This document shows, in pieces, positions 27,333 through 45,101 of a DNA stretch of 64,000 nucleotides. The notes under the pieces were generated by a model. It saw only the letters and a program-made list of their open reading frames with translations. It did not search any database and was not told the DNA's origin. The translations under genes and the position numbers were made by a program. The stretch's first letter is position 1; each line of letters opens with the position of its first letter. The stretch is from Phlebopus portentosus (taxonomy: Eukaryota > Basidiomycota > Agaricomycetes > Boletales > Boletinellaceae): assembly GCA_037892935.1 (NCBI GenBank), contig JAYXKI010000001.1, forward strand, positions 2,294,001 to 2,358,000, in the 5' to 3' direction.

Positions 27333-28938
27333 TGTTAGGACCAGTGTTTTCGGACGAGGTGGTCAGTCCGAGCGTACCGGAACAAGTCCCTGCTTCCTCC
27401 TTCTGACAATGTATGATTGGAGAGTAGAGTAGCGAAGGTTAGATGTACTACTAAGAAGCGAGCTATAGGCTCAAGCTTGACCCAGCAGTAGAGCAGAGGT
27501 TCAATCAAAGGGGTACAGTTATGATTGAAAGTACAAAATAATTTTGCTGAGGGACAACACCCCGCTCAGCTGGTGCTTTAAATAAAGTTTCTACTGAATA
27601 CTACCGACTACCAAATACTACCGACCATGCCTCGCTATTGGTTAGGACAATGTGTTTCAGCTGGTGTCACTACTACTCTCTTGAGTCTGTAGTACCACTG
27701 ACAACTCTGGTGGTGCTACCGAAACTCCTGGTTGCACCACCGACTACTTCCTTCCCTATTAGGCAGGCCCTAACTTCCTTCCGTTCCGAAGAAGCCTTCC
27801 CCAGGCTTCTATCGATCTCCGTTCCTATCACATGTTAATCCTTAACGCCAATCTTCCCATGAGAGACTTCTTTCATGTGCCGCGATCTCGCTTCGCCGGC
27901 GCTCCGTTACTCCGGCCGAGCTTCTGCCGTTTAATCTTCCATCATGGGGCTGACCGTTATCTCGGGATTTGGGATCGGCAACCCCTGCCGATCATCGGAG
28001 ATTAACCTTGGCGGCTGTGTAAATTTAGCCGACACCCTTCTGTGCCTTGCCGCGATATCGATGTCAGTGAATTGTAGTCCGGTACCCGTCGTTAACCTGT
28101 ATCTTCTTCCCAGGTGATTCGTTCCGCGCCATTCGTCGACTGTAATAACCCCTTCTTCCGATCGTTCCCATGCTTCTAGCATTCGATCCGTTGCTTCTTC
28201 GATAAGACTTTCGACGTCCGATGGCGCACTGTAATAGATCGGCCAATCGACTTCTACTGCAGTGTTTCGACACAAGGTCTGGTGACGATGCTGATTGATC
28301 CAAGCTCTCACGCCAACCTTCAGTGCATAGATATCCCTGTCGCCAAGCCATACAGATACCTCATGATCGTATGCGCTCATTCCGCGGTTCGGCAATGGTT
28401 GGTCAAACGTTCGTTCCGAGGGTCCGGGTTTATGCCGAATCTTGACATCGGCCCCTTCCCTAGTTACTAAGCGCTCCACGAAGTTCTTGAGGAGCCACTC
28501 CGAAAGAACCCAACTCCTTTGGTATGCCAAATAGCAGTTTGTACAAACCAGGCTTTCATGAACAAAGCGTCTGGTTGCACTATGTCGATATCGTCTCTTC
28601 TGCAGGAGTTCCACGTATCTTGCGATGTTCCATTCTTCCATGTCCACGTAGCTTCGCTCGGGTGGAGGAGTATGTCCAATATGCATTCCAGCTAGTCCTT
28701 GCTGTAAATCGTATGGGTCCTCCCTTTCGTCGCGTTCGTCCTCGTAATATCGTCGATCAGGTTCCTCTTGAATATATTCCACAGCGACCTCCCCAGGTCC
28801 TTGCTGTACTAGTGGGCGAGAATCGCCTCCACTATTCTGTCCTTGAAGCCTTTCGAAATGCTCTTGATTAGGCTGCATAATTCGGTGTGTAAAGCGTCTG
28901 ATGCCACGCCGCATTGTATATCCACAATTTTCGTAACA
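27333..28938 (-). repeat. E2 3' LTR
   Basis: 1606 bp with TGTTA...TAACA ends. On the minus strand its first ~1 kb is occupied by a 327-codon ORF beginning 24 nt inside the LTR; the remaining ~600 bp include a TTTATTTAAAG TATA-like site near 27575-27585. Confidence 0.93.
27931..28914 (-). CDS. LTR-encoded 327-residue protein of E2 (3' LTR copy)
   Basis: The ORF starts at the first ATG after the LTR terminus and ends inside the LTR. The N-terminal ~90 residues are Q/E/R/D-rich. Then come YVELLQKRRYRHSATRRF, a C-x2-C pair (CTNC), a helical stretch, HEVSVWLGDRD, TAVEVDWPIYYS, a helix, GVITVDEW and a P/S-rich end. I recognise no known domain. A broken homologue occupies the same place in the E4 LTR (57488-58228), with the C-x2-C pair, the HxVxV motif, the V-D-W-P/I-D-I-P motif and the GVxVxDE motif alignable. 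In the 3' LTR it lies downstream of pol on the same strand, like the U3-encoded gene of some retroviruses. Function unknown. Confidence 0.8.
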   Translation of the reverse strand: MRRGIRRFTHRIMQPNQEHFERLQGQNSGGDSRPLVQQGPGEVAVEYIQEEPDRRYYEDERDEREDPYDLQQGLAGMHIGHTPPPERSYVDMEEWNIARYVELLQKRRYRHSATRRFVHESLVCTNCYLAYQRSWVLSEWLLKNFVERLVTREGADVKIRHKPGPSERTFDQPLPNRGMSAYDHEVSVWLGDRDIYALKVGVRAWINQHRHQTLCRNTAVEVDWPIYYSAPSDVESLIEEATDRMLEAWERSEEGVITVDEWRGTNHLGRRYRLTTGTGLQFTDIDIAARHRRVSAKFTQPPRLISDDRQGLPIPNPEITVSPMMED

Positions 28939-28949
28939 TTCCTCCCCTT
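28939..28949 (-). promoter_or_regulatory. E2 polypurine tract
   Basis: Minus strand AAGGGGAGGAA directly precedes the 3' LTR, the site expected for plus-strand DNA priming. This also fixes the orientation. Confidence 0.8.
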
Positions 28950-29437
28950 AAGATCCACTTCGGACTGCAAGGAGAGTGTGGATCCCTTAATTGTGGTAGC
29001 CATAATCTTGCTGTTTCGTATTGTTGCTTCCTAGACCAGACTCTTCTTGTGTACTAGTGTCTCATTCCTCTTGTCTGGAATAACTGTAGCACTGTACATC
29101 CAGAGTCCTCCGCTCATTATTGATCATGTGACCTGACGCACAACCCATTCGAACAAAAGTGCGGCAGTCATGTGACTTAAACACTTCCTGTTTGGATGAG
29201 AGGGTGGCAGTCACGTGATTGACGCTCAACCTGTTCTCAGAGAAAGGCGGCGGTCACGTGACACTTGCTCAATAACTCAAAGCCTCGCTGAGTGTCGGCT
29301 CCCAACATACTAGATGCTTCCCAGCATGCTAGGAATAGTTTAATGACTTATTCAGGTCAAATATGACCTCGATTAGTGTCGGTCCCAACTTACAAGGTAC
29401 GTCCCAGTACGCTTGGAATAGTTTAACGACTTGTTCA
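28950..29437. other. E2 region between pol and 3' LTR, with three CACGTG-type repeats
   Basis: About 490 bp interrupted by E3 at 29438. It contains GGCAGTCATGTGA, GGCAGTCACGTGA and GGCGGTCACGTGA near 29166, 29209 and 29250, and near-duplicate TATTCAGGTCAAATATGACCTCGATTAGTG/CTCAAAGCCTCGCTGAGTGTCGG segments. No ORF is supported; 28809-29003 has a short frame without motifs. Confidence 0.5.
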
Positions 29438-29897
29438 TGTTAGGCGGACGGCTCAAGGACTGAGTCGAGGCAGGCCAACACAACAACAAACAAGCGTGAA
29501 TGAGATAATCCCAAACACGTCGCTCAGGTCAAGACAGCTAAGACGAGGCTTAAGTCCAGACCGTCGAACGCTAGGTCGCAGTGAAGGTAAGTAGAATTCA
29601 GCAAACTAATAATACAAGAGTAGGTACCTAGGTCGCAGTGAAGGTAAGTAGAATAGAAAGACAAGGAACGAAAGAGTCAAACTATCTACTTATATAGACT
29701 TTGGGCGCGGGAAAAGGTCTACCCTAATGGGAAGTCACATGACAAGGAATGGGATGATTAGTGAGCGTGATAGAACATTGTGGAATGTTCCGGCAAAAGG
29801 ATGAATAAGCGCATAAGAAAAATAAAAGAAAAAGAAAAAGAATATTAAAATAAATGATGACGTCAGAAAAGAAAAGGAAAATGTTCGAGTCCTTACA
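29438..29897 (-). repeat. E3 3' LTR
   Basis: 460 bp. It contains a direct repeat of (T)AGGTCGCAGTGAAGGTAAG (near 29570 and 29631) and an A/G-rich segment near its inner end. A polypurine tract AAGGGGGGG (minus strand, 29901-29909) precedes it by a few bases. Confidence 0.93.
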
Positions 29898-32800
29898 TCA
29901 CCCCCCCTTCAAGGTTGGGCGTCCCGACCAACCACATAAGCCTTCTGAGGACGTGAACTTGTACAGCGTTCGCAGGCTTTGTCGAGGTATCGTTAACTTC
30001 CTTGGAGCTCCAGGATGTTTGCGGTAGAATTCTTGAATTGACTCCTGCGCATTATCCTTGACGTCGGATTCTGGCTGCCAAGTCGCTTCCTCATATCCAA
30101 CCCACTTGACCAGAAATTGGAGCTTGCCTCGATGCAGACGCGAGTCGAGTATTTCTTCAACCTCGTACTCTTCCTGCTCATCAATGATCACTGGTGGTGG
30201 TGGAGGTGGTTTCTTCTGCGATTCAAAGGACGGTTGGACGGCTGGTTTGAGCAAGATCTCATTGAAAACTGGATGGACCTTCTTCCAGGTCTTCGGTAGT
30301 TTGAGTCTGTATGCGCTTGCGCCAACCTTTTCCACTACCTCGAAGGGACCAAACCATTTATCATCCATCTTCTTCGTCGGTCGGATCGTCTTGATATTTC
30401 GTCCATCTAAGAAGACCTTCTGCTCTGCCTCATAGGTAACGGACTTCCCAGCATGGCGGTCGTAGAAACGCTTCATGTCTTCGTTTGCTTGGGTTAGGTT
30501 ACCTTGAGCGAGTTCGTGCACCTCCTTGACATGTTTGGCAAATTCTTCTGCTGACAGGTTCGATGATGCCGTTCCAACCCCCATGAAGTCTAGGGGGTGC
30601 ATTCCCGTATTGACGAAGAAGGGAGATAGCTTCGTCGCTGAATGTTCACGATTGTTGTATGCGAATTCTGCGAGAGCCAGCCAGTCTGCCCAGTCCGACT
30701 GCCGATGGTTGACGTATAGCCGCAGGTATTGTTCTAGTTCCTGATTAACCCGCTCTGTCTGTCCGTCAGTTTGTGGGTGATACGCTGTCGATGGGTTGCC
30801 TTCAATGTGGAGGAGCTTGTACAACTCCTTCATCATCTTTGCATCGAATTGCACCCCTCGGTCATGAATGATCTTCCGTGGTAGTCCGTGTAATCGGAAG
30901 ACGTGGTCCCTGTAGATCTTAGCCATGCCTTCCGCCGTTAACTTTGTCGTTGTTGGAATTGCATGGATTTGTTTGCTAAAGCGATCGACCACTACGCAAA
31001 TCGCATTGAACCCATTTGATTCTGGCAACTCTCCGATTAGGTCGACCGTGACAATCTGCCATGGCGCCTCCGGCACCTCATTAGGGTGCAAAACCTTTGC
31101 TCTCGTTGTCCTTAGAGCCTTCGTCCGTTGACAACGATCACACCCCCGCACGTACACTCGCACATCTGCACTCATCCTCGGCCACCAGTACTTGCGTGCT
31201 ATTAGCTGGATCGTCTTTGTTGCTCCTGGATGTCCTGCCAGGGTCGAGTCATGGTGTTCCTTCATGACGTCCTCTCTGATGCTCGCTGGTACATATAGTC
31301 GGCGGCCCTTTCTCCACATGTCCCCTCTCTTCTCGACGTCCTTCGGCCTCACTCCCTCGTCCTCTTGTCTCTGCGCTTCCACAACCTTTTCAACGAGTAC
31401 TTCTCTCGACGTCTGAACCATTCCTCTAACCAGCCATTCCTTCTTGATGAAAGTCACGTTCTCATTATCGCGCTCGCCCTTGTCATAATCCGCCCGGCGT
31501 GACAACAGATCAGCTTTTCCCAACGTTTTTCCGGGTTTATGGACTAGCGTGAAATCGAACTCAGCTAAATCGAGTCGCCAACGAGCTTGTCGACGATTTA
31601 ACTTCTGCGGCGATCGGAAGTACGTTAGATTTGCATGGTCTGTCCATACCTCAAAAGGTTGGCTAGCTCCCTGGAGATATTGTCGCCATTCCTTTAGGGC
31701 TTGAACGATAGCGAGCATTTCCTTGTCGTAAATCTCATAGTTTCGTTCTGCCTCTAGGAATGTTGACGACCGATAAGCGATCACCTTCCATTTACCGTCT
31801 TGTTTCTGGAGAAGGACTCCACCAGTCGCAAAGTCCGACGCATCCGCTTCTACACGGAAAGGGTCCTCGTTGTTAGGTATCGCTAACACGGGAGGACTAC
31901 TCAAACGACGCTTCAATTCCTCAAACGCTGCCTGCTCATCTTCGCCCCATCTCCATTCCACCTTACCCGTTAGGGTAGTCAAGGGTTTGACGACTGAACT
32001 GTAGTCCTTAACAAAACGTCGCAACCAATTTCCTAATCCCAGGAATTGTTGCAGTTCGTGGACGTTTCTTGGAACTGGCCAGTCCTGTACTGCCGCCGTC
32101 TTCTTGGGATCCATTCGAACTTCGCCATTGCCAATAATGTGCCCGAGGTACTTGACTGTATCAACTTCGAACTCGCACTTCTGCGGCTTTAGGAAAAGTC
32201 CGTTTTGGCGAAGGATCTCAAAGACTCGTTTGGTGCGTCTGCGGTGTTCTTCTAGATCATTCGAGAAGATAAGGATGTCATCGAGGTAAATGATGACGAT
32301 ACCCTCATGAATTAGCTCCCGAAAGATGTCATTCATAAAGCCTTGGAACGTCGCTGGCGCATTACACAAGCCGAAGAACATGACTGTGGGTTCGAATAAG
32401 CCTAGATTTGTCCGGAACGCTGCCTTCCACTCGTCTCCCTCGCGAATCCGGATGTTGTAGTATCCCCAACGAACGTCGAGCTTCGTGATGTACCTTGCAT
32501 CCTTAACCTTGTCGATGAGCTCATTTATCAGTGGCAACGGGTATTTGTTCTTGACCGTTCCTTCATTGAGCTTTCGATAGTCTTGGATTGCTCGTAAGCT
32601 CCCATCCTCTTTCTTGATAAAGAAGAATGGTGACGCCATTGGAGACTTCGACTGTCGGATACGTCCTGACGCTAGGTTTTCCTCAATGAACTCCCTCATC
32701 GCTTCTTGTTCTTTTGGCGATAACGGGTAAACCTTGCAGTCGCTGGGTTTGAAATCCGGTTTCAGGTCAATAGCGTGGTCCCACGTTCGGTGGTTTGGTA

Positions 32801-33755
32801 AGCGTTCGAACGATTCCTCACTAAAGACGTCGGCGTATTCCTCCAGGTAAGGTGGCCATTTTGCCGCTTCCTTCATCCGCACATTCCTCACAAACTCTTC
32901 ATCTATCTCCTCGCTCGACAGTGGCGACTCACATTCATCAGGGCAACGGGTGAACTTAACTGTTCCTAACCTCCAATCAATCTCAGGATTATGCTTCGTC
33001 AACCAGTCATGTCCGAGGAAGATGTTGCTTGACGCTAAGGATGTCACTGCCAGTCGAATCTCTTCCTCGTGTTTCCCAAAGAACATTCGTACGACTACGT
33101 ATTCCTTGATCAATCCAGCCTCGTTGCTTGTTCCGTCAGCATTGAAGACTGGTCTAGGCCGAATGTACCTTTGGGTGGGGAAACCATACCGTTTGACAAA
33201 ACCTTCGTCGATGCATGAGCCCGTGCACCCTGAGTCGATCAGTGCATGAGCATCAATGAAGTTTTCCTCTTCGAGTAGGGGGTTCGACAAGTCTACTTCG
33301 TCATCACCTGCTACCTTTGGGTGTACGATGCTAACGAAGGTGTCTAACTCCTTTCCTCCTGCCCGTCGCACAAACTGATCTGCGTCCACAATGCCCTCGC
33401 GCCATACCTCAGCCGCGCGTCTGCCTACTACATCCCACACTGCTTCAGTGACGTTCGCCTGAGCAACAACGTTCTCGCGGTAAGGTGCTTCCGCCACAAC
33501 CTCATTTTTTATAGCGGTTTGATTCCGCTCTTCCTCTCTCAATTCGCCTGCTTGCGCATCTGTTCTTCTGACAAATAAATCTTCATAGACTTCGAAGTCA
33601 TCGTTGTCATCTTCAGATTCATCTGGCAGTACGTCGGTAAGGATCTTTCGAAGGATAAAACCGTCACTGGTATTCGCATCTTGATATTGTACAACAGGAC
33701 GATTATATTTTAACGAGTCCAACGAAAAGAGTCCTTTAGGATACCGACCAGTCAT
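29898..33755 (-). CDS. E3 Pol polyprotein (protease, RT, RNase H, integrase, chromodomain)
   Basis: 1285 codons. An acidic N-terminal part is followed by protease ALIDSGCTGSC near residue 173, RT with FFGLCNAPATFQ and YLDDILIFS near 489, RNase H with EADASDF near 635, an integrase HHCC zinc site (GHPGATKT to CDRCQRTK) near 830-875, catalytic D, D, E in VDLIGELP, HDRGVQFD and ERVNQELEQ, a GPF/Y motif (KWFGPFEVV) and a C-terminal chromodomain EEYEVEEILDSR to WVGYEEATWQPES (about 1190-1240). The chromodomain would direct integration to chromatin marks. All key residues are present and the frame is intact, so the element may be active. The ATG lies 8 nt after the gag stop in another frame, suggesting reinitiation. 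Confidence 0.96.
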   Translation of the reverse strand: MTGRYPKGLFSLDSLKYNRPVVQYQDANTSDGFILRKILTDVLPDESEDDNDDFEVYEDLFVRRTDAQAGELREEERNQTAIKNEVVAEAPYRENVVAQANVTEAVWDVVGRRAAEVWREGIVDADQFVRRAGGKELDTFVSIVHPKVAGDDEVDLSNPLLEEENFIDAHALIDSGCTGSCIDEGFVKRYGFPTQRYIRPRPVFNADGTSNEAGLIKEYVVVRMFFGKHEEEIRLAVTSLASSNIFLGHDWLTKHNPEIDWRLGTVKFTRCPDECESPLSSEEIDEEFVRNVRMKEAAKWPPYLEEYADVFSEESFERLPNHRTWDHAIDLKPDFKPSDCKVYPLSPKEQEAMREFIEENLASGRIRQSKSPMASPFFFIKKEDGSLRAIQDYRKLNEGTVKNKYPLPLINELIDKVKDARYITKLDVRWGYYNIRIREGDEWKAAFRTNLGLFEPTVMFFGLCNAPATFQGFMNDIFRELIHEGIVIIYLDDILIFSNDLEEHRRRTKRVFEILRQNGLFLKPQKCEFEVDTVKYLGHIIGNGEVRMDPKKTAAVQDWPVPRNVHELQQFLGLGNWLRRFVKDYSSVVKPLTTLTGKVEWRWGEDEQAAFEELKRRLSSPPVLAIPNNEDPFRVEADASDFATGGVLLQKQDGKWKVIAYRSSTFLEAERNYEIYDKEMLAIVQALKEWRQYLQGASQPFEVWTDHANLTYFRSPQKLNRRQARWRLDLAEFDFTLVHKPGKTLGKADLLSRRADYDKGERDNENVTFIKKEWLVRGMVQTSREVLVEKVVEAQRQEDEGVRPKDVEKRGDMWRKGRRLYVPASIREDVMKEHHDSTLAGHPGATKTIQLIARKYWWPRMSADVRVYVRGCDRCQRTKALRTTRAKVLHPNEVPEAPWQIVTVDLIGELPESNGFNAICVVVDRFSKQIHAIPTTTKLTAEGMAKIYRDHVFRLHGLPRKIIHDRGVQFDAKMMKELYKLLHIEGNPSTAYHPQTDGQTERVNQELEQYLRLYVNHRQSDWADWLALAEFAYNNREHSATKLSPFFVNTGMHPLDFMGVGTASSNLSAEEFAKHVKEVHELAQGNLTQANEDMKRFYDRHAGKSVTYEAEQKVFLDGRNIKTIRPTKKMDDKWFGPFEVVEKVGASAYRLKLPKTWKKVHPVFNEILLKPAVQPSFESQKKPPPPPPVIIDEQEEYEVEEILDSRLHRGKLQFLVKWVGYEEATWQPESDVKDNAQESIQEFYRKHPGAPRKLTIPRQSLRTLYKFTSSEGLCGWSGRPTLKGG

Positions 33756-33763
33756 TCCGACGT

Positions 33764-35218
33764 CTATGCCTGGTCTTCTGGAAAACCCTCGCCTTCTATG
33801 AGTTCTTCCAGCTCAGCAGGTACCGCTCGTACATCGACGTCGTCGTCCTCTTCGAAGGAGGATTCCTTTGCTTGGCCGAGTTCCTCGAAGAGCGCCTTTC
33901 TGTCTGCTGGGACGAAGGCTGCGATGATGGCACGTATTGCTTCACGACCTCGCGGGCAGTCTCTGATGTAATGGCCCATCTGACCACACTTGTAACAAGC
34001 ACGTGTACGACGCGCCTGGTTCATCATCACCTCCATGGGTTGTCCTAAGCCTCCATACGTTACTCCTGTAGCATCACGACGATCTTGAGCGGGGGGTACG
34101 AAAGGACGGGCTGCTTGTTGAGGCGGCATAAAACGCCTCATTGGTGGTGTCGGAGCTGGTTTTATTGCTGTCGAACTAATTGTCTTTCTCCGACGTTCAG
34201 CCATCAGGTCCCTGATTTGGCGCTCAACCCTGTCGACCTTGACGGCGGCCTTCTTGAACTCTTCATATGACGTCGGTTCATTGGGCAATCTCATGACCCC
34301 TTCCACAACCTTTGGGTTTAGCGCCCTCTTCAAGCGACTCATCAACCATTCGTCGTGTGCCTCTGTTGCTAGGCCAGCATCCACTCGACAAATGTCAAAC
34401 TTGTTGAAAAATTCGTCGGCGTTGAGGTCTCCTTGGTACATCGCATCTAGTCGTTCGAAGGCCTTTTGGGATCTGGCAGGGTCATCGAACGAAGTGTCCA
34501 GCTTCTTTAAGAAGGCGTCCCAGGCGTCCGTGAACGTCAGGTTGCCGTCCGCATCGACTGCTCCACTGGTGTAACTCTCTGCCCATCGAGCCGCAGCACC
34601 ACTCTTCATGTACGACAGGGCGAACATAATCTTACTCTTGTTCGTCCTGAACTCTGACTCAGATGCGTAGATGTAGAGGCGCAGCTCTCGCTTGAAGTCC
34701 ACATAATTGTGTTCACCATCGAAGTCTCTTGGTTTGGCGACGTGGACCTTCTTCGACACCTTTGATCCTTGGTTCGCACCTTCGCCTGCAGCTTGGAGCG
34801 CTAGTGCGACCGCCGTTGCGAGATCAGTCATTGCTTCCTTCGATAATGACATCTCGTGTTCTTCTTCTTCTTCTTCGTCTTCTTCACTCGGTATAAGCGG
34901 CGCTGGTTCTCGGAACTTTCCAAACGCTGGAGAGGGCTCGACAGTGGGGGCCAACGCTTGGGTGGTCGAACCCGATGGTTCTGGTAAGGGGGCCGTTGGT
35001 TGCGTCGGAGTAGGAGGTGAGGGCTCGTCTACGTCGCCTTCTTGTTTCACTCTCCAGTGGATGGACCTTCCTTCTCTCTGGGAGTACCACCTCTTGGCAG
35101 TCTCGTCCCACCAGGCGCCGAAGACTTGATTTCCTGCTTTGACGATATAATGTCCCCGCGAGGCGCTCCACCTAGAGTTCGCAGGGAGGGCCGCTCGTTG
35201 CTCGTCAGTTAGCTCCAC
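33764..35218 (-). CDS. E3 Gag
   Basis: 484 codons. The N-terminal ~60 residues contain a WxxS-type segment (ANSRWSASRGHY), then a P/T-rich linker with an E-run, a capsid-like domain (KPRDFDGEHNYVDFKRELRLYI to RLPNEPTSYEEF) and a zinc knuckle CYKCGQMGHYIRDC near residue 415, with an acidic tail. It forms the particle and packages RNA. It lies between the 5' LTR and pol, with pol starting 8 nt after its stop. Intact. Confidence 0.93.
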   Translation of the reverse strand: MELTDEQRAALPANSRWSASRGHYIVKAGNQVFGAWWDETAKRWYSQREGRSIHWRVKQEGDVDEPSPPTPTQPTAPLPEPSGSTTQALAPTVEPSPAFGKFREPAPLIPSEEDEEEEEEHEMSLSKEAMTDLATAVALALQAAGEGANQGSKVSKKVHVAKPRDFDGEHNYVDFKRELRLYIYASESEFRTNKSKIMFALSYMKSGAAARWAESYTSGAVDADGNLTFTDAWDAFLKKLDTSFDDPARSQKAFERLDAMYQGDLNADEFFNKFDICRVDAGLATEAHDEWLMSRLKRALNPKVVEGVMRLPNEPTSYEEFKKAAVKVDRVERQIRDLMAERRRKTISSTAIKPAPTPPMRRFMPPQQAARPFVPPAQDRRDATGVTYGGLGQPMEVMMNQARRTRACYKCGQMGHYIRDCPRGREAIRAIIAAFVPADRKALFEELGQAKESSFEEDDDVDVRAVPAELEELIEGEGFPEDQA

Positions 35219-35634
35219 CTTGATAGGCTGGGGGTGGAACGGGGATCGGGATGCTGTTCGGGCGGGACCGACTTCGGATAACCGGCTCGTCTTTGAAATT
35301 GATGACTAAACGAAAGGCTCCGAGGTAGACAATGAAGGAGATACTTGTCGACGACTGGACTCTATGTGTTACCCACGAGAAGGTTTGATGGGAGTTCCAG
35401 AGAAGGGTGATTCGGAGCGCCACGGTGATGTGATTGGTTGATACTTCGGGTACTATCGGGTCACGTCGGAGTCAATCGGACTTCGACGGGCAAGATAGGG
35501 GTTTGTTGTCTGCACGGTAGGAACCGGGTTTCGTTCGATGTCGTCCTTCGAAGATATACTTCAGGGGACACGTCACAGGCGAGCGCTCGACGACAACGGA
35601 ATCGAGCGTGAGCCAGAGGTAGGTCTTTCTATTA
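35219..35634 (-). other. E3 5' untranslated leader
   Basis: About 415 bp between the 5' LTR and gag ATG. The minus strand just inside the LTR contains TGGCTCACGCTCGATTCC, a TGG-initial PBS candidate about 16 nt in, further than usual. The shared TGGAGCCCAC site of the other elements is absent. Confidence 0.45.
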
Positions 35635-36094
35635 TGTTAGGCGGACGGCTCAAGGACTGAGTCGAGGCAGGCCAACACAACAACAAACAAGCGTGAATGA
35701 GATAATCCCAAACACGTCGCTCAGGTCAAGACAGCTAAGACGAGGCTTAAGTCCAGACCGTCGAACGCTAGGTCGCAGTGAAGGTAAGTAGAATTCAGCA
35801 AACTAATAATACAAGAGTAGGTACCTAGGTCGCAGTGAAGGTAAGTAGAATAGAAAGACAAGGAACGAAAGAGTCAAACTATCTACTTATATAGACTTTG
35901 GGCGCGGGAAAAGGTCTACCCTAATGGGAAGTCACATGACAAGGAATGGGATGATTAGTGAGCGTGATAGAACATTGTGGAATGTTCCGGCAAAAGGATG
36001 AATAAGCGCATAAGAAAAATAAAAGAAAAAGAAAAAGAATATTAAAATAAATGATGACGTCAGAAAAGAAAAGGAAAATGTTCGAGTCCTTACA
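35635..36094 (-). repeat. E3 5' LTR
   Basis: 460 bp, no difference seen from 29438-29897. The outer end is followed by the GTTCA duplication and then by E2 sequence. Confidence 0.93.
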
Positions 36095-36121: not shown

Positions 36122-39100
36122 CTAAGCCTCGCTGTACTCGCTATCCGAGGAGTCAGCCCAAAACCAATCCTTGTATGAAGGATCCCCTTTTTCTTCTGGC
36201 AGATCCCATCTGCGAACTGGCAGCGCTTTGTTTCGAGTGAATGGCCTTTTTGCGGCTCTCCAATGACGCTTGTGCCATTCCGGATAACCGAAATCTCGCT
36301 GCTTGATACCTGTCTTGCTCTGGTATCTCCTTCTCTTGATTACCCTCTGAGCTACGGACTCTCCCAGTGCCGTCCTCAGGAACTCATCATCTTCTTTCTT
36401 GATGTCGATTACTCTCTGCGTAGAGTCTATAATATCCGCAATCTTCTTTCTAGAGGGAAGATCTATCGTGTCCGGCCAACGATTCCTCTCGTGATACTCC
36501 CGCAATTTCTCTGGGGCATTGCGTAGCCCTTCCACAGGTTCCCAGGTATTCTCTTCCTCCGGGTAGCCGAGCCATTTAACCTGATACTCCCATTTTCCGT
36601 GCCTTTTCCTCATGTCCCGGATCGCTTCAACCTCGTATTCGGTTTCTCCAGCGATAACTTCTGGTGGTGGTCTTGTTCTCTGTGCCGGATCTTTTCTTTC
36701 TCGATAGGGAATTAATAGTCCTGCATAGAACACCGGGTGGATCCTCAACTCTTTTGGGAGATCCAATTCGTAATTGACTAGCCCATGCTTTGCGATAACT
36801 TGATAAGGTCCCAGGTTTCTATCCCCTAGCTTCCTCGTGGGAACTAGCAGGGTTAGATTCCGACCATCTAACATAACTTTATCGCCAACTTCGAATGACG
36901 GCATCGGGCCTCGGTGTCTGTCCGCGAATCTCTTCATCGCGTCTCGTGCCTTCTCCAGCGCCTTTGTTGCTTCTTCCTGATTCTTCTTTCGCATAGCCAC
37001 ATAGTCCTGTGTTCCTCGGATTGGAAGCTTGAATCCTAATTCCGGTTGAAATCCATACACCAATTCAAATGGTGTCTTGCCTGTACTAGAGTGAGAGCGA
37101 CTATTATAGGCGAATTCTGCCATAGGTAGATGTTCGTCCCAATCGTCTTGCTGCAAGCTGGAATAGCAACGTAGCAGCTGTTCCATTTCTTGATTTACTC
37201 GCTCTGTTTGACCATCTGTTTGTGGATGATATGCCGTGCTAAGCTTCGTTTCAATCCCGAGGGCCTGGTTCACCTGTTCTGTAAACCGGCTAGCGAATTG
37301 AGGTCCCCTGTCGCTGATTACTGTCTTCGGAGTTCCGACCTTGCTGTAGACATAATTGATCATCAAGTCCGCAGTGGTCTTCGAGTTTGCATTTACTGTA
37401 GTAGGTATAAAAGTTCCCATTTTAGAGAACCTGTCTACCACCACTAGTATCGCATTGTTTCCTTTGCTCGTCGTTGGAAGTCCGGTGACATAGTCCATGG
37501 TAATCTCGTCGTAGGGCTTTGTCGCTATCTGCAATGGTTGTAGCGGTGGTTGCGTCTTTCCTCGTCGCGCTTTCGTCCTTTGGCACACGTCGCATGTGCG
37601 CACATATTCTTCGACCCATTCCCTCATCTTCGGCCACCAAACTCTTCTTTCCAGTTTGTCTATAGTCTTCTGTAACCCCGGGTGTCCTGATGCCGGTGCG
37701 TCATGGCACTGTCGTACAATTTCCTTCTTAACTTCTTCATCTGGTGGGATAACCAATTTATCATCCTTCCACCAATATCCTTCTTCGAACGTTCCGTTTG
37801 TTGGCTCTTTGGATCGTTCATAGGCGTCTCGAATCTTCTCTCCCAGTTCAGGACCCCCTGTAAGCTCAAATACCCGTACTGTGCGCATGGGCAAGTCCGA
37901 TGTTCTGAACAATTGCGGAGGAAGTAGGACTTGTTCTGGCTGGTCCTCTTGGCCCTGTTCATAGTCTGGCCTCCTTGATAATGCGTCCGCTCGTGAATTC
38001 TTGGTTCCAGGTCGATACTCGATTCGAAATCGAAATCTGCTGAGAAATGTCGCCCATCTTGCTTGGCGGCCACTTAGCTTCCTAGCTCCCATAAAATATC
38101 GAAGGTTAGCTTGATCGCTGACCACTCGAATCTCATGTTTAGCTCCTTCCAAGTGGTGCCTCCAGTTGCTCAAGGCCTTGACAATTGCTAGTAATTCTTT
38201 GTCCATTACTGGATAGTTATTCTCGGCGTCTCGATAGGTGTTCGACCAATATCCAATGGGGTGCAAAATTTCATCGTCCCCAAGCTGCGAGAGCACGGCT
38301 CCCATCGCAAAGTTTGACGCGTCGGTTTCCAGCACAAATTGCTTCTCATGATCCGGTCGTACTAGCATTGGTGCAGTGGTAAAAGCTTCTTTAAGTTTCC
38401 TAAAGCTCTCTTGTTGTCGTTCTCCCCAGGTAAACGTCTTCTTGCTGGACATAAGTTCCGTTAGTGGCCTAGCGATCTTGGCGAAACCTTCAATAAATTT
38501 TCGGTAGAAGTTTGCAAAACCGATAAACTTTCGAATGTCTCGCTTGCTTGACAAATCTGGCCATTCTTGAACTGCCTTTACCTTGTAGGGATCCATCTGC
38601 ATGCCCGACTGGTTAACCACAAATCCTAAATAATCGAGTTCCTTCTTTCCGAAGTAGCACTTCTCTGGTTTGCAGAAGAAGTCTGCTTCCCTCAACCTGC
38701 GCAATACCTCTGCTAACAGGTCCCAATGTTCCTGTTCCGTTTCCGCATAGACTATAATGTCGTCCAAATAAATGAGTATGCCCTGCCCAATCATGTCCTG
38801 AAAGAGCTCGTTCATTGCACGTTGGAATACCGCAGGTGCATTCATTAATCCAAACTGCATTACCATCGGCTGGTATACTCCCATATGAGTCCTGAAGGCG
38901 GCATACTTCTCATGCCCAGGGTGTATTCTGATGTTGTTATACCCGCTTCGCAGATCCAGTGTAGAGAACCATTTGGCATGTGCAAGGTCGTCCGGGAGCA
39001 TATGTAATAGAGGCATCGGTTGGTGGTCTGGAATGACCACCGCATTCAGTCCTCTATAGTCGATAACAATCCTATACTCCGGCTTGCCATCCTTCCCTAT

Positions 39101-41413
39101 TGTCTTCTTGGCTATGACAAATACTGGTGCGCAAGTGTTCGCCTTTTCTTCAGCTGGTACTCGGTTTCCTACAACACGAATCCATCCCTTCTTCAGGTCC
39201 TCGCGAATCCATTCTTCTACCGCTCGCTTTTCAGCAGGAGCGAGTGGATATACCGGTCCAGGTTTCGGGAGCTCTGCTCCTGGTAGGAGCTCGATCTTCA
39301 TGTCCCATTGTCCCGACTTAGGTAGCCGCCTAGCAGCATCCTTGTCGAACCTATCCCTGAACTCCCATATTTGTTTTGGAAGAGTGTCTTCGAGAGATTT
39401 GTCGCCAGCAGAGCCTGCCATCCTTTCATCGAGTGCTTTCTCTTGTGCATATTTTTGAGCTATGCTGTTGTACTTGAGAAGGCGTTCTCTCCGTGATGCG
39501 ACTTGTCGATGCTCTAGGCGGCGGATCCAGTGAGGAGGTTTGGGTGGCTCTCCTCTTCGAGAGGCGTCCTCTGCTTCCCCTAAGGTAGCAGGCTTGTGCG
39601 ATCCTAGGATACCCTTGAACTCCGTCTCAGATCCAGCTCTTCTCTCTAGCACTTTTCTTTCCCCTTTGGGCGGCTGCATGACCGAGTCAACAGGTGTGCG
39701 CCATCGGCGCCTCTTCTGCCCCTGCGAGAGCTCCTGCTCCATCACGGCATAATTCGAAATGAACCCGTTACCTTTACCGTTTGTTTTCCCTGTCGGAGCA
39801 GGGCCCTGCATTTGGTTCTTAAACCGTGGTCTTCGCGGGCGCACTTGAGCTCCCGAAGCTAGCCTACTTGATGGTTGCGGCGTACTAACTTCGGCCCTGT
39901 GCCGATTGAGTGGGACTACCCTCCCTTTGGGGTGGACCACTTTCCTAGACACTAGCCTACCCTTGAACGGCGTCTCATGTCTAGTCACTCCTCGGTTTCT
40001 CGTAGGAGGAGTTTTCGCTAGGTGGCCGAACCTAGTACGCTTCGTGGCCTTAGTTCCACGGCGCTCCCGACCCGAAGTACTCCTGCTTGTACCTCTGCTT
40101 CGTGTGGTGAAGCTTACCGACTGCTTTTGCACTGCCAGGGTTGAGTCATTGTGGCCCTCGTGCACGGATGGAGGAGTCCACTCCACCCTTATACTCCTTA
40201 TGACAGGGTTTGAATCCGTACCACTTCCTCCGCTCTTCTGTCGACGCATCTTGAGAGGATCAGGTGCGTAGTGTCCGGGCTTTCCTCCTTTAGGTGGTAC
40301 ACTAGGCTTCTTCCTTCTATTCGTATCAGATCCTTCTGCGTCGATTGTCATTTGTGCCTGTATTTCTTCCCGCACTCTTGCTTGGTCTTCAGATGTTGTT
40401 GGTGAGGTCGTTGTTCCTAGGCCTCCCTGAATCGCTATCAGCTGAAGACGCGCCATATACATGCCGCCATATTCATCGAGGAGTTCATCATGTTTGGCGC
40501 CCTTGTCCATTTCTCTGACCATGGTGCGGTATACTGCACCATCTGCATCCTCGAGACTGTTAAAGTTGTGCCAGTTTTGATCGTCCTTCGTTATTCGGCA
40601 CTTGTCCCCGAACCAAAAGAATTTCCATCTTCCTTCTTGCTTAGCGAAGGAGAGTTCTGGCGGCTTGTGCATGACTTCTTCGAACGTGACAAGCGGTGCT
40701 GCTGATTCCTTTTCTTTTCCTTTATCTGGTGGTACGATCGTAGGTTCTTCTTCTATGTCTTCCTTCTCGGTTTCTTGTCCTGTTTCGATGTCGCTGTGGT
40801 AATAGACCCTAGTTTCCCAAGCTTCTTCCTTTTCATCATCGGCATCCCATTCGGGTGGAATGTAGTCTGGAATTCTTCGCCATCTTCTGCGTTTCCGGAG
40901 CTTCCTTGGGGCTAGGACTAGCTGTATGGAACGCAATCGTGCCGTTCCATTAAATGCAATTTCCTTCCCGCCTTTGCGAAGAATCCCCTTTGTCCAGTCG
41001 ATAGTTGGCTTATGCTGTTCAAGCCAATCATTTCCTATGAGAAACTTGTCTTCGTGTGTATCCACCACTGCGATGTCCATTAAACCTCTTGTAATCCCTG
41101 TGTCCACTATTGCTCTGACGTTCCGAGTCCATCCACCATGATTAATCGATCCGTCGGCATTCCGGATGGTATAATTACCTTCTGCAGGCACTGTTCTCAG
41201 CCCTAGGCTCTGTACAACCGTGGGGCTAATAGTAGTGATCGCAGATCCGGAGTCAATCATAGCCGAGAGATTAACCTTTTTCTGTCCCTGAATGACGTCA
41301 ATGGGTATAGTGGGATGGTTGGAATTTGGTCTAGCAATAGTCCATCGGCGCTTTATCTCTTGTGTGTCCTTCGAGCCCTCGCCAGTGTCCGATGTTGACT
41401 GGCGGCCCTTCAA
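36122..41413 (-). CDS. E2 Pol polyprotein (protease, RT, RNase H, integrase, chromodomain), unusually long
   Basis: The frame spans 1763 codons with no ATG at its start; it overlaps the end of the zinc-knuckle frame in a -1 relation. Protease AMIDSGSAITTIS is near residue 51. It is followed by an exceptionally long ~650-residue basic, S/T/P-rich region with no domain I recognise, then RT with YLDDIIVYA near 880, RNase H with ETDASNF near 1028, integrase HHCC (SGHPGLQKT to CDVCQRTK) near 1240-1280, D, D, E in MDYVTGLP, SDRGPQFA and ERVNQEMEQ, GPYQV, and a chromodomain ETEYEVEAIRDMR to WLGYPEEENTWEP near 1590-1640. A further ~120 residues rich in K, R and W follow the chromodomain. Key catalytic residues are intact. 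Confidence 0.94.
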   Translation of the reverse strand: MKGRQSTSDTGEGSKDTQEIKRRWTIARPNSNHPTIPIDVIQGQKKVNLSAMIDSGSAITTISPTVVQSLGLRTVPAEGNYTIRNADGSINHGGWTRNVRAIVDTGITRGLMDIAVVDTHEDKFLIGNDWLEQHKPTIDWTKGILRKGGKEIAFNGTARLRSIQLVLAPRKLRKRRRWRRIPDYIPPEWDADDEKEEAWETRVYYHSDIETGQETEKEDIEEEPTIVPPDKGKEKESAAPLVTFEEVMHKPPELSFAKQEGRWKFFWFGDKCRITKDDQNWHNFNSLEDADGAVYRTMVREMDKGAKHDELLDEYGGMYMARLQLIAIQGGLGTTTSPTTSEDQARVREEIQAQMTIDAEGSDTNRRKKPSVPPKGGKPGHYAPDPLKMRRQKSGGSGTDSNPVIRSIRVEWTPPSVHEGHNDSTLAVQKQSVSFTTRSRGTSRSTSGRERRGTKATKRTRFGHLAKTPPTRNRGVTRHETPFKGRLVSRKVVHPKGRVVPLNRHRAEVSTPQPSSRLASGAQVRPRRPRFKNQMQGPAPTGKTNGKGNGFISNYAVMEQELSQGQKRRRWRTPVDSVMQPPKGERKVLERRAGSETEFKGILGSHKPATLGEAEDASRRGEPPKPPHWIRRLEHRQVASRRERLLKYNSIAQKYAQEKALDERMAGSAGDKSLEDTLPKQIWEFRDRFDKDAARRLPKSGQWDMKIELLPGAELPKPGPVYPLAPAEKRAVEEWIREDLKKGWIRVVGNRVPAEEKANTCAPVFVIAKKTIGKDGKPEYRIVIDYRGLNAVVIPDHQPMPLLHMLPDDLAHAKWFSTLDLRSGYNNIRIHPGHEKYAAFRTHMGVYQPMVMQFGLMNAPAVFQRAMNELFQDMIGQGILIYLDDIIVYAETEQEHWDLLAEVLRRLREADFFCKPEKCYFGKKELDYLGFVVNQSGMQMDPYKVKAVQEWPDLSSKRDIRKFIGFANFYRKFIEGFAKIARPLTELMSSKKTFTWGERQQESFRKLKEAFTTAPMLVRPDHEKQFVLETDASNFAMGAVLSQLGDDEILHPIGYWSNTYRDAENNYPVMDKELLAIVKALSNWRHHLEGAKHEIRVVSDQANLRYFMGARKLSGRQARWATFLSRFRFRIEYRPGTKNSRADALSRRPDYEQGQEDQPEQVLLPPQLFRTSDLPMRTVRVFELTGGPELGEKIRDAYERSKEPTNGTFEEGYWWKDDKLVIPPDEEVKKEIVRQCHDAPASGHPGLQKTIDKLERRVWWPKMREWVEEYVRTCDVCQRTKARRGKTQPPLQPLQIATKPYDEITMDYVTGLPTTSKGNNAILVVVDRFSKMGTFIPTTVNANSKTTADLMINYVYSKVGTPKTVISDRGPQFASRFTEQVNQALGIETKLSTAYHPQTDGQTERVNQEMEQLLRCYSSLQQDDWDEHLPMAEFAYNSRSHSSTGKTPFELVYGFQPELGFKLPIRGTQDYVAMRKKNQEEATKALEKARDAMKRFADRHRGPMPSFEVGDKVMLDGRNLTLLVPTRKLGDRNLGPYQVIAKHGLVNYELDLPKELRIHPVFYAGLLIPYRERKDPAQRTRPPPEVIAGETEYEVEAIRDMRKRHGKWEYQVKWLGYPEEENTWEPVEGLRNAPEKLREYHERNRWPDTIDLPSRKKIADIIDSTQRVIDIKKEDDEFLRTALGESVAQRVIKRRRYQSKTGIKQRDFGYPEWHKRHWRAAKRPFTRNKALPVRRWDLPEEKGDPSYKDWFWADSSDSEYSEA

Positions 41414-41703
41414 AAATCCTCCTCGGAATCCTTCTCGAGGGCATACGAAGCCCGTTCCTTACGCCTTGGTAACTTCGTTTTCTTGTCCAGTAGTTCCTCC
41501 ATTTCAGAATCGCTGCTAATCCCAACTTCCCGGCGTTTTAGGAAGCGGCCAGTCTTGCCAGATCGTCTCTTCTGCACCCGTCTCTTGTAGTTGGTTCGGT
41601 GTCCACGGCTTCCCTGTGTGTCTCGCCCTACATTATTGCAGTCCCGTGCGAAGTGACCTGTCTTGCCGCATGCCCAGCATATCCCGGCATCTCCTCGGGA
41701 CCC
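41410..41703 (-). CDS. E2 zinc-knuckle frame between gag and pol
   Basis: A short frame holds the knuckle CWACGKTGHFARDC and a basic tail ending SEEDF before TGA at 41410-41412. It is -1 relative to the upstream gag ORF (41628-42431) and pol is -1 relative to it. A TAG just upstream (41704-41706) means ribosomes must enter by shifting after that point. At the pol end GAT TTT TGA overlaps the pol frame, and a one-base slip on the T-run reads through. The first shift has no canonical heptamer and may be an indel in this copy. Confidence 0.65.
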   Translation of the reverse strand, partial: GSRGDAGICWACGKTGHFARDCNNVGRDTQGSRGHRTNYKRRVQKRRSGKTGRFLKRREVGISSDSEMEELLDKKTKLPRRKERASYALEKDSEEDF

Positions 41704-42431
41704 CTAGTAAAGCGCCTAGACATGTCGATGTCCATAGGCTCACCCAGAAACTCAGCTGGACGGCGAGCTTCTGGGGGCACTGGCGTGTACGATACTGCCT
41801 GCCCATCTTTAAACATAGGGGTGTACTTCCTATTGCTGCCTATCACCTTGGCAGCCATCAGACTGGCCTCCAGATTACTAGCGTTCTCCTTCCATTGGTT
41901 CAGGTCCCATTCTGGGTGGTCTGTATTCGTAAGCAGGGCCTTTAGGATCGTTTGATTGAGTCCTCTCTTGTACTCGTAAATCAGTGCCTGATGGTCGTAG
42001 TGCTTTGGCAGCCTCATCCTAATGTCGTCAAAGGCCCTGTTATACTGCTTCACCCGCGCCCGTTCCTGATAAATTGTCCTAATATTCCGCTCGGCTTCTT
42101 CTTGAAGTCCAAAAATGCCATTGTGGTTGAGCGCTAATTCGTTCCATAGGTCGTCCTCGCTGTCCCATCCACCCTTCTTGTCTATAACAAGCTTGCCATC
42201 CGCATCTCGCTTGTAGGTGGAGACTAATTGATTTCTGTTCACGGCCCACTTGCCATTAACCCAAGTCTGAGCTTGACCTCGCAGACATTCCAAAATAATC
42301 TTAACCCTCTTGACTGGGTCGCTCGGATGTTTTTCATTCAACCGGCTGATCATTTGATTCTGGAAGTTCTCAAGTGACTCATAAGGGTTTCCCTTAAACA
42401 AGGGATACTTCATGATATCTTTGTTTGACAT
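41628..42431 (-). CDS. E2 Gag (capsid part)
   Basis: 267 codons. The start ATG is followed by SNKDIMKYPLFKGNPYESLENF, and the protein is helical and capsid-like, with an EEAERNIRTIYQ segment and a PMDIDMSRRF motif typical of sequence just before a Gag zinc knuckle. In this frame the knuckle itself is out of phase (see 41410-41703). It is flanked upstream by ORF2. It would form the particle. Confidence 0.85.
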   Translation of the reverse strand: MSNKDIMKYPLFKGNPYESLENFQNQMISRLNEKHPSDPVKRVKIILECLRGQAQTWVNGKWAVNRNQLVSTYKRDADGKLVIDKKGGWDSEDDLWNELALNHNGIFGLQEEAERNIRTIYQERARVKQYNRAFDDIRMRLPKHYDHQALIYEYKRGLNQTILKALLTNTDHPEWDLNQWKENASNLEASLMAAKVIGSNRKYTPMFKDGQAVSYTPVPPEARRPAEFLGEPMDIDMSRRFTRGPEEMPGYAGHAARQVTSHGTAIM

Positions 42432-42628: not shown

Positions 42629-44279
42629 CTATCTCCTTTCTTCCCGAGCTTCGTATCGTTCCTCGCCGCTTTCGTGTTCCTCGCTTTCCTCTTCTGTTTC
42701 CCATTCGTCATTGGCATCGAAGTACTCTTGATCCTCGCTGGTTGGCTCTTCTACGTTGTTACCTCGCACCCAAACTACCATCGCCATGTTCGCTACCCCC
42801 TGCCTCGGTGGTCCCTCTCGTATGTCGAGAAACTCCGATGGTATAGGGCAGCTGTTAGGACGAATGATAGGATCATAGATATAATCAGAGTCTGGGGAGT
42901 ACTCACTGACCGCCTGGAGCCTTGCTTCTCTCTCCTCAAGCTCAAGAGCACTTGGAGTAGGCGATCCTGGCGGCGAGTCCTGGTGCGGGTATTGAATGTG
43001 GTTCCTTTCGACGTAGTGGCCATTCCATCCCAGCCGTTGAATCGCTCCCTCGACGAGTTCTCCCTGCTCATTCCACATGAGCTCCCGGATTCCCGTGCCA
43101 TAGCCCGTTTCTGCCGTGTTGTCCGCCTCCCATGCTTCCCCAGCATCGGGAGGCGGTCCCCATCCGTCGTTGGATGGCCAGGGCTGTGGTGACTCAGGAA
43201 TTACCTCCCTCAGCAGTTCTTCTGCTTGCTGGTCCAGGCTTCCGGGTTGCGTTTCTGTGGAGACGTAGTCTGGGAGATCTTCTTCCACTTCGATGCTTCC
43301 TTCGACTTCCTGTTCCTCTTGGGCGAGCGCAGCAGGCGCTACCAGCCCTCTTTCCTCAACTACCTCAGCGACGTAGCTTCTTCCAACTTCCACTGCTTGT
43401 TGTCGCAACTGCGACGACGGTTGTCCTGTTCGAGTGTCCGTTCCTCCTGGTTCCCTGCTCTGGCGAATGATCTCGACCATCTGATCCACAAAGCGTTCAC
43501 TTGCTGGGATCAGGCTGGGCATCTGGTCGTCGTCGGAGTCTGAGCTCACGCTTGCGAAGCGGTTAGCCAGACTTAGGCCTCTACCTTGTAGCGGGGAGTC
43601 AGGGCTCAACCTTGCCCTTCCTCGCCTAGCTCGCTGTGTCAGGTAGGATTGACGAAGCCTAATCGTTTGTTGGATCCGACGAATGCCTTCCGTGATCGAG
43701 TACTGGGCCGCGAGTTCTTCCTCGGCATTGCTGATCCGGGCTCGAATAGCCTCGACCTGTTCGACCAGGTAGCTAGCCTGCGTGTGTAACTGCAGGAAGT
43801 CCGTACCAGTCAGCCGAATAATCTCTTGCTGGGAGTTGACCACTTGTTGAGCAAGGGCTGATTGACTGCCCTGAATGGCCATTGTTACCGCTCCCAGAAT
43901 TCGAGCCTGAAGAATACCGAACGCATAGTTGATTCGTACGTCCCGCTGTTCGCCTTCTCGCCTGAGACTGGTGATGACTGCCTCGGCGATCGCATCTCCG
44001 ACGTGTCCCTGAACATGTGCCAGAAACTCCCCCAGTGTCTGTCCTTCTACGGTAAGGTTCTCGGAGTATTGAGAGCCCATGTCGTAGAGTCGAGCAACAG
44101 TAGCTGTGAGAGTTCTGAGGGACCGATCAACGCTAGTAAGTCGATTGTCGAGGTCGATGACGGCGTGTCGCAGGGCGGAGACAACTTGGTTGGGTTGCCC
44201 GTCAGTACTGACCATTCGGTCCAAGCGTCCGTGTAGACTGTCGAGTCGTTCACTGATGCGTGCCAGAGCGGATTCCATA
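42629..44279 (-). CDS. E2 ORF2: unrecognised coiled-coil and acidic protein
   Basis: From an ATG at 44279 the frame gives ~550 residues. The first ~260 are strongly helical with coiled-coil character (SALARISERLDSLHGRLDRM, VEAIRARISNAEEELAAQY), followed by a S/D/P-rich middle and a very acidic E/R end. The frame is open further upstream to 44536, but there the other frame (ORF1) is the conserved one, so I place the start at 44279. It lies between ORF1 and gag, with a -1 relation to ORF1. No catalytic motif is seen. It could be an extra structural protein, or the second half of an ORF1-ORF2 product. Confidence 0.6.
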
Positions 44280-44964
44280 CGTTCTCCAGGTCCGGGTTGA
44301 GGAACTGCCAGTCGTTGAGTTTGGAGTAGAAATCTCCGACCGGCACGACGGAATGGGGAACCTCTTTCGTTGTCTTGCCGTTCCATCCACGTCCATAACG
44401 TTCCAAAGCCTCGAAGAAGGCAGACTCGACCTCGGAGTTGTTGAGCAACGACGAATACCAGGGAAGAAAACCAGATGAAGCCGAGTGTAAACCAGAAACT
44501 AGACCAACCAGCTTGCCACAGTTCCATCGGTGACATAGCTGTTTCGCAGAAGTGTAGTTGCCTTGATAAACTTGTAGTAGGACTTGGTGGAGGAAATGGG
44601 AATGTTCGAGTAGGGTGTATTCGAACGCTTTATATTCCTGACACAGAGCGAGTAATTCTTCTTCAACTGGTGTCGGACCTCTAAGTGCCTCCCAATTGAA
44701 ACTGTGTCCGTTCAATAGGTTGTCCGCGTGTACAAGCAAGAACTTCCTCCCAACTCTTTCGTGTCTTTCGGCGGTGATTCGAAGCTCCAGGGCGGATAGT
44801 ATAACCGACCGGTAGGGTTCTAGGATAGGGGTGTTTGAGTGCTTCTTACCTCGATAGAAGTTTATCGTGCGAAACGCCGAATTGACTTCTTCTTCGAATG
44901 TATGGAGCGCTCTAACAAAACTCCGATGGAGTGTATAAGCCTGCTTTAGCCGTCGACGATACGC
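44047..44964 (-). CDS. E2 ORF1: unrecognised protein shared with E4
   Basis: The frame opens after a TAA at 44965-44967 and has no ATG before its conserved region (YTLHRSFVRALHTFEEEV, GPTPVEEELLALCQEYKAF, FLHQVLLQVYQGNY). The same pattern occurs at 56168-56752 (GTPVTDEEFGKCITKYRYA, CLHQALTYLIKGDY), so the coding assignment is supported by conservation. A 3' splice-like AAAGCAG at 44941-44947 precedes the conserved part, so ORF1 may be spliced to an upstream leader exon. The last ~70 codons overlap ORF2 and are doubtful. No known domain recognised. Confidence 0.6.
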   Translation of the reverse strand, partial: AYRRRLKQAYTLHRSFVRALHTFEEEVNSAFRTINFYRGKKHSNTPILEPYRSVILSALELRITAERHERVGRKFLLVHADNLLNGHSFNWEALRGPTPVEEELLALCQEYKAFEYTLLEHSHFLHQVLLQVYQGNYTSAKQLCHRWNCGKLVGLVSGLHSASSGFLPWYSSLLNNSEVESAFFEALERYGRGWNGKTTKEVPHSVVPVGDFYSKLNDWQFLNPDLENVWNPLWHASVNDSTVYTDAWTEWSVLTGNPTKLSPPCDTPSSTSTIDLLALIGPSELSQLLLLDSTTWALNTPRTLP

Positions 44965-45101
44965 TTATCGGTGATCAGCTAACTGAATTAACAGGCACGG
45001 GAGAAACCCTCCCGGGGCAGAGCAATACTTACTGATCGATAGTGGGTATTGCACTATGAAACAGCAAGATTGATTATCCCAGGATTGGAGCAAAATTATA
45101 A
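44965..45101 (-). other. E2 leader after the 5' LTR
   Basis: The minus strand directly after the LTR reads TTATAATTTTGCTCCAATCC. The E4 leader has a similar TTTGAATTGAACTCCAAACC. This may be the primer-binding region, different from the TGGAGCCCAC type of E1. The primer is unknown. Confidence 0.45.

Follow-up and report, generated by a model that had tools for sequence, protein, structure and literature searches.

Introduction

Retrotransposon LTRs usually count as non-coding regulatory DNA, and they are frequently masked ahead of gene prediction. A protein family under selection that occurred in LTRs alone would be missed, or its members would be dispersed over gene lists as hypothetical proteins, as happened with P0003-P0005 of Sanghuangporus sanghuang and S. 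vaninii. Among retroviruses, HIV nef and foamy virus tas/bet are 3'-terminal accessory genes that reach into U3 and are expressed from spliced or internally promoted mRNAs. They resemble the ORF described here, which is carried by two families of fungal elements (E2 and E4), in extending into U3, but they start outside the LTR, whereas the E2/E4 ORF lies entirely inside it. In Tf1/sushi elements we know of no U3 gene. These elements share a Ty3/gypsy pol with E2 and E4, as well as the 11-nt self-primer outlined in the available part of the source (PMC7175516). Additional ORFs located downstream of pol, ahead of the 3' LTR and frequently in antisense orientation, are described for Grande (gene23), RIRE2, Retand, and the Botrytis element Boty, and gene23 of Grande has its own promoter, as far as the accessible portion of the review goes (PMC7264820). 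Like the E2/E4 ORF, they encode accessory proteins of unknown function beside gag-pol; unlike it, they are, in the account of that portion, not placed in the LTR.

The nearest genome plan is that of MMTV, whose U3 contains the sag ORF (PMC9412291, available part). Sag (and Naf) and the E2/E4 gene have in common a sense ORF in U3, which is hence present in both LTRs. E2 and E4 differ in that their host is a fungus, they are self-priming chromoviruses without env, and no Pfam relationship was found. A search of open-access papers, with subscription papers outside its range, returned no retrotransposon gene located wholly inside an LTR.

Organization of the E2 element

The window analysed here is a stretch of 64,000 nucleotides from the genome of Phlebopus portentosus. 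E2 occupies its minus strand, which makes 45102..46707 the 5' LTR and 27333..28938 the 3' LTR; both measure 1606 bp and were delimited by self-comparison and by the target duplication CTGTT (5 bp), which is found on both flanks. The two LTRs start with TGTTACG, end with CTAACA, and are 99.94% identical (one mismatch in the window self-comparison). All internal features share the minus strand: an ORF upstream of gag (42629..44536, 635 aa, N-terminus hydrophobic), gag (41628..42431), pol (36122..41413), and the polypurine tract AAGGGGAGGAA (28939..28949), which adjoins the 3' LTR on its upstream side. The nested chromovirus E3 (29437..36094, minus strand), which served as a comparison element, is inserted between E2 pol and the E2 3' LTR. 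Its 461-bp LTRs are identical to each other, its insertion is recent, and among the listed ORFs none of at least 150 aa lies in these LTRs.

The order protease, RT, RNase H, integrase, and chromodomain in E2 and E4 is that of Ty3/gypsy chromoviruses, and the TG...CA LTRs with a target duplication of about 5 bp, seen in 23 E2 pairs, are likewise typical of this group. Once the nested E3 is subtracted, the interval from E2 pol to the 3' LTR measures 27 + 498 nt and contains no env and no listed ORF of at least 150 aa. An env-bearing retrovirus is ruled out for E2, which has no env gene and whose U3 protein shows no hydrophobic span; in the E4 protein, a single stretch, at residue 45, is moderately hydrophobic (KD 1.51). 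An additional ORF of the plant type (Grande, RIRE2, Retand) is ruled out as well, the U3 ORF being inside the LTR and not in the interval between pol and 3' LTR.

E2 and E4 each possess an extra ORF between 5' LTR and gag, without a Pfam match in either. In two E4 copies (L013, L109), this ORF is preceded by an 83-codon open stretch without ATG, which may mean leader splicing. About 1.5 kb separate pol from the 3' LTR in another E4 copy (L014), where a frame of about 90 codons with an Asn/Arg/Gln-rich start is open about 0.8 kb before the 3' LTR.

An ORF within U3 and its copies

The preliminary description had reported an intact 327-codon ORF in both E2 LTRs, starting 24 nt inside the LTR, and this holds: the ORF spans LTR nt 25-1008 in the sense of the element, at 27931..28914 in the 3' LTR and at 45700..46683 in the 5' LTR (both minus strand), and the twin copies are identical. 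All 80 copies fetched keep codons 1-12 open, and the true start may nevertheless be Met13 (28878 in the 3' LTR), because the NCBI-predicted relatives P0003 and P0004 start there. A third, shortened copy noted earlier at 54340..54538 (minus strand) was recovered as a remnant with the last 65 codons open, 89% identical (58/65) to the E2 ORF and cut off by the start of an E1 LTR.

Across the genome (38.4 Mb, 23 contigs), the E2 protein gave 122 scored matches among 241 candidates. Ranked by protein score, the best 80 of these 122 were used as the E2 copy set; read from Met13, the frame is intact in 68, interrupted by a stop in 11, and carries a 3-nt gap in one. E4 is present in about 29 copies (30 matches including one split copy; 29 in a second search). 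A sample of 15 comprised eight intact copies, which encode 246 aa, six with stops, and one with a gap. Twelve E2 loci were classed as solo/other; nine of them are bordered by matching 5-bp sequences on either side, and six of the nine (L029, L053, L070, L078, L081, L098) have kept the frame. Because it lies in the LTR, the gene is doubled at every insertion, and it can outlive its element as a solo LTR.

The E4 LTR in the window (5' LTR, 56780..58284, minus strand, with the E4 primer-binding site directly after it) was likewise said to encode an alignable homologue beginning about 10 nt inside. The homology stands, while both the start and the state of the copy have to be amended: the ORF (57488..58228, minus strand) spans LTR nt 57-797, and the window copy is a relic with two in-frame stops. 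The E2 and E4 proteins are 22% identical over 156 residues (BLASTP E=4e-10), and their profiles align over 170 columns (hhalign E=5.1e-8). As had been proposed, this homology is confined to the protein level: a comparison of the window with itself (E no higher than 1e-10, at least 80 bp) listed no DNA match between the two LTRs. Identity between E2 and E4 amounts to 30% in gag, which is thus better conserved than the U3 protein, and 51% in pol, whereas E3 pol is 39-42% identical to E2 and E4 pol. E2 and E4 are the closest pair among the three elements, and the U3 ORF therefore probably descends from their common ancestor. The best matches in protein searches were hypothetical proteins (P0003-P0005), one of Sanghuangporus sanghuang (97% identity) and two of S. 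vaninii (65% and 62%); beyond these two species, only one further contig was matched, and no host gene. Taken by themselves, these matches would very likely place the host among Sanghuangporus mushrooms.

Selection on the protein

Observed replacement and silent counts were set against those expected from an identical spectrum of base changes, CpG sites being handled separately. Variants present in at least two loci of the best 80 of 122 E2 copies comprise 71 replacement, 118 silent, and two nonsense changes (omega 0.29, p=3.6e-17), and private variants in the same set comprise 54, 36, and three, respectively (omega 0.67, p=0.043). The shared variants gave omega 1.92 and 2.26 in the two wrong frames, and the distribution over the three codon positions is 45/26/120 for shared versus 30/27/36 for private variants. 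In the 15 E4 copies, six replacement, 29 silent, and two nonsense changes are shared (omega 0.09, p=9.8e-11). Private E4 variants are constrained too (omega 0.34), which counts against a clean contrast in this family and which we read as incomplete sampling. Random stops and a dN/dS near 1 had been named in advance as the pattern opposed to selection; with 68 of the best 80 of 122 copies intact and the shared omega given above, the outcome is the opposite.

Ranking by protein score could itself mimic constraint, and for this reason the key test relied on LTR pairs. It drew on 23 E2 elements whose target duplications agree on the two sides, and on the fact that the LTRs of one element are identical at insertion. 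Variants found in both LTRs include 51 replacement, two nonsense, and 85 silent changes, whereas variants confined to one LTR and found nowhere else include 13, one, and four, i.e. 53:85 versus 14:4 changing to silent (Fisher p=0.002). These substitution patterns demonstrate purifying selection on the U3 protein during replication of the element and its relaxation after insertion. Together with the frame controls, they bear out the earlier proposal that conservation across families reflects selection on the protein. Eight of the 23 pairs show no difference between their LTRs. In two of the 23 elements, both LTRs share one and the same stop, and in three more a single LTR has a stop; there is therefore no strict requirement for the ORF in cis, unless both LTRs of those two elements were struck by CpG decay. 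With so many near-identical LTR pairs, selection before and after insertion becomes directly measurable within one genome. At the level of sequence, it is confirmed that the ORF exceeds chance openness, by the number of matches, the frame-specific codon constraint, the contrast before and after insertion, and the homology across families.

Features of the protein

In line with the earlier statement that no domain was recognisable, searches of Pfam, NCBIfam, and PDB yielded no significant match for the U3 proteins and none reaching a curated cut-off; the best PDB match was a designed scaffold (E=0.013), and the best Pfam match was DUF1570 (E=0.0033), obtained with one member of an alignment (A2). 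The model of the E4 protein (pLDDT 69, pTM 0.70) shows an alpha/beta domain that begins with two helices and continues with a series of strands, one long helix, more strands, and a disordered tail. Structure searches with this model, which was also compared with a phage tail-terminator-like alpha/beta fold, gave weak matches to common arrangements and no confident fold. Cys124, Cys127, His211, and Cys215 are invariant in all of the best 80 of 122 E2 copies and are aligned with E4 counterparts, forming a possible metal site.

Self-priming and the predicted start of the RNA

The start of the element RNA was placed by the self-priming rule of Tf1, as given in the available part of the source (PMC7175516). 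In E2, the primer-binding site (45089..45099, minus strand; 2 nt inside the internal region, i.e. +3 to +13 past the 5' LTR) is the exact complement (11/11 nt) of LTR nt 1391-1401, AGCAAAATTAT. This segment lies at 45307..45317 (minus strand) in the 5' LTR, where the RNA is predicted to start, and the self-primer match recurs at 27538..27548 (minus strand) in the 3' LTR, which would be the start of R. E4 has an independent 11/11-nt complement to its LTR nt 1333-1343, and the primer-binding site of both families thus pairs with the first 11 nt of the putative RNA, as in the Tf1-like self-priming group. A match of this length was reached by 3/500 shuffles for E2 and 2/500 for E4. The placement is supported by the leader that follows: the 782 nt from the putative start to the next E2 ORF (44537-45318, minus strand) contain no ATG, whereas 1000 single-base shuffles had 11.3 on average and never fewer than three; in one E4 leader, the initial 446 nt are free of ATG as well.

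It follows from the self-priming sites that the predicted start is downstream of the ORF in both families. A complete sense ORF is accommodated between LTR start and transcription start (nt 25-1008 versus 1391 in E2; nt 57-797 versus 1333 in E4) and, with the RNA start so predicted, lies wholly in U3. The comparison with U3-encoded retroviral genes made in the preliminary description, which concerned position, is thereby strengthened. With such a start, the copy in the 5' LTR would be left out of the RNA, and the copy in the 3' LTR would come to lie at the tail of the genomic RNA.

Candidate signals for expression of the U3 gene

Both families carry a pyrimidine tract followed by AG (E2, TCTCCTTGCAGTCCGA; E4, TCTCCTTTTAGTCCGA) at the same 26-nt distance before the 3' LTR. 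In E2, the tract with its AG (CACTCTCCTTGCAG) is located at 28965..28978 (minus strand) and is a candidate for either a 3' splice site or the start of a U3 mRNA. The blocks of the two families match over 16 columns with two mismatches, a similarity reached by 0/300 shuffles of the stretch. A longer match between E2 and E4 (19 nt, two mismatches) lies far upstream, at unequal distances, and shared DNA in this region is therefore not unique to the pyrimidine-AG block. Across 31 E2 copies, no shared variant falls in the 57 nt that adjoin the 3' LTR and the preceding 383 nt hold 48 variable sites, a comparison in which 3' LTRs recognised partly via their tract favour conserved ends and from which one copy (L085) without an exact LTR start was left out. 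Single changes do occur in this stretch, one of them within the last 40 nt. Inspection by eye of the 90 nt before the E3 LTR revealed no pyrimidine-AG block at the matching place; TCCTCAG occurs further up, inside pol.

The ATG-free E2 leader contains a single GTRNGT, located 285 nt past the putative start within GTAAGTAT (45025..45032, minus strand), which follows ATCA directly at 45032 and is not preceded by any ATG. It is a candidate 5' splice site, picked out by its match to the consensus. Its eight positions show one private change in 35 copies. The E4 leader has GTACGT or GTATGT at 446-447 nt from the start in 4/4 copies examined, with more GTRNGT sites later.

It is quite likely that translation of the U3 protein would use the copy in the 3' LTR, placed as the final cistron of a subgenomic mRNA that begins its body at the pyrimidine-AG block; this block may act as splice acceptor or as start site. 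Given such an mRNA, there is about an even chance that it is produced when the ATG-free leader is spliced to the AG located 26 nt ahead of the 3' LTR; most of the remainder would fall to an internal promoter situated after pol and before the polypurine tract. Splicing would place the ORF behind a clean leader, except that, where polypurine tract and U3 meet, a short frame with an ATG precedes the main ATG in both families. Against it, the splice would span about 10 kb, and an intron of this size is unusual for a fungus. Donor-like hexamers are, moreover, common by chance, and others are present in the E4 leader. Fungal start sites, in turn, often follow CT-rich stretches. Leader splicing appears favoured only slightly over a promoter before the polypurine tract, and the pyrimidine-AG block could instead serve plus-strand priming.

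Four E-box-like TCACRTGA motifs (29124-29261, minus strand) are found at -323, -280, -237, and -193 before the E2 3' LTR, spaced by 43, 43, and 44 nt. They constitute a possible internal promoter of E2; none was found before the E4 3' LTR.

Possible functions of the U3 protein

The position of the ORF, its open frames, the homology across families, the selection during replication, the self-priming sites, and the shared pyrimidine-AG block are demonstrated directly in the DNA. The explanation we consider moderately likely as a whole, expression and role included, is that of a genuine accessory gene of two related fungal Ty3/gypsy chromovirus families, contained wholly in U3. Its biochemical role is a guess, because no domain, PDB relative, or confident fold was obtained. 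A soluble factor with a regulatory or counter-defence role, active in trans at least to some degree and raising RNA output, RNA export, or escape from silencing, seems to fit best, followed by a particle cofactor, although the regulatory role taken by itself is put forward with somewhat less than even confidence.

A cofactor of the particle, either structural or enzymatic, expressed in the same manner and serving assembly, reverse transcription, or integration, would be in keeping with strong constraint during replication; the invariant Cys/His set could bind metal, and the E4 model suggests an alpha/beta domain. However, the U3 protein has diverged further between E2 and E4 than gag and pol have, the related E3 has inserted recently with no comparable listed ORF of at least 150 aa in its LTRs, and two elements were mobile despite stops in both of their LTRs, so that such a role is rather unlikely. 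Ty1 p22, a Gag fragment that lowers copy number, offers the model for a self-limiting factor, whose dose could grow with copy number if intact ORFs persist in solo LTRs, as they do in six of the nine with matching flanks. The U3 proteins, though, show no Pfam match to gag, and any brake would have to be weak in view of the high copy number and the 8/23 LTR pairs without difference, which renders this role improbable.

An open frame and a high copy number alone would also be compatible with a captured host gene travelling as a passenger. Constraint in the replicating lineage followed by decay after insertion, a homologue in a second family, and protein searches that returned no host gene make this very improbable. 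U3 regions are regulatory in general, and conserved promoter elements might leave a frame open by chance; this explanation, the least credible of all, is refuted by the frame controls, since the codon-position pattern differs between shared and private variants and omega for shared variants exceeds 1 in both wrong frames, and the families share a protein while their LTRs show no DNA match in the window self-comparison.

For the accessory gene favoured here, a wider reading may be offered tentatively, as possible but doubtful: a lineage of fungal chromoviruses could have arrived independently at the plan of complex retroviruses, with a donor in an ATG-free leader, an acceptor by the polypurine tract, and a trans-acting U3 gene that is recopied to both LTRs, kept in solo LTRs, and fast-evolving against host silencing. 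With a U3 gene of this kind, the retroviral habit of lodging accessory genes in U3 would prove to have arisen in an env-less element as well, and the habit would therefore not need an animal immune system.

Neighbouring sequences

Between an E1 LTR and E2, two overlapping ORFs (25262-26559, minus strand) encode ArgoL1 and ArgoL2 domains and appear to represent a host Argonaute gene, or a fragment of one, amid transposons. Tandem repeats with a period of 182 bp are located at 48739-49402, within a minus-strand open frame.
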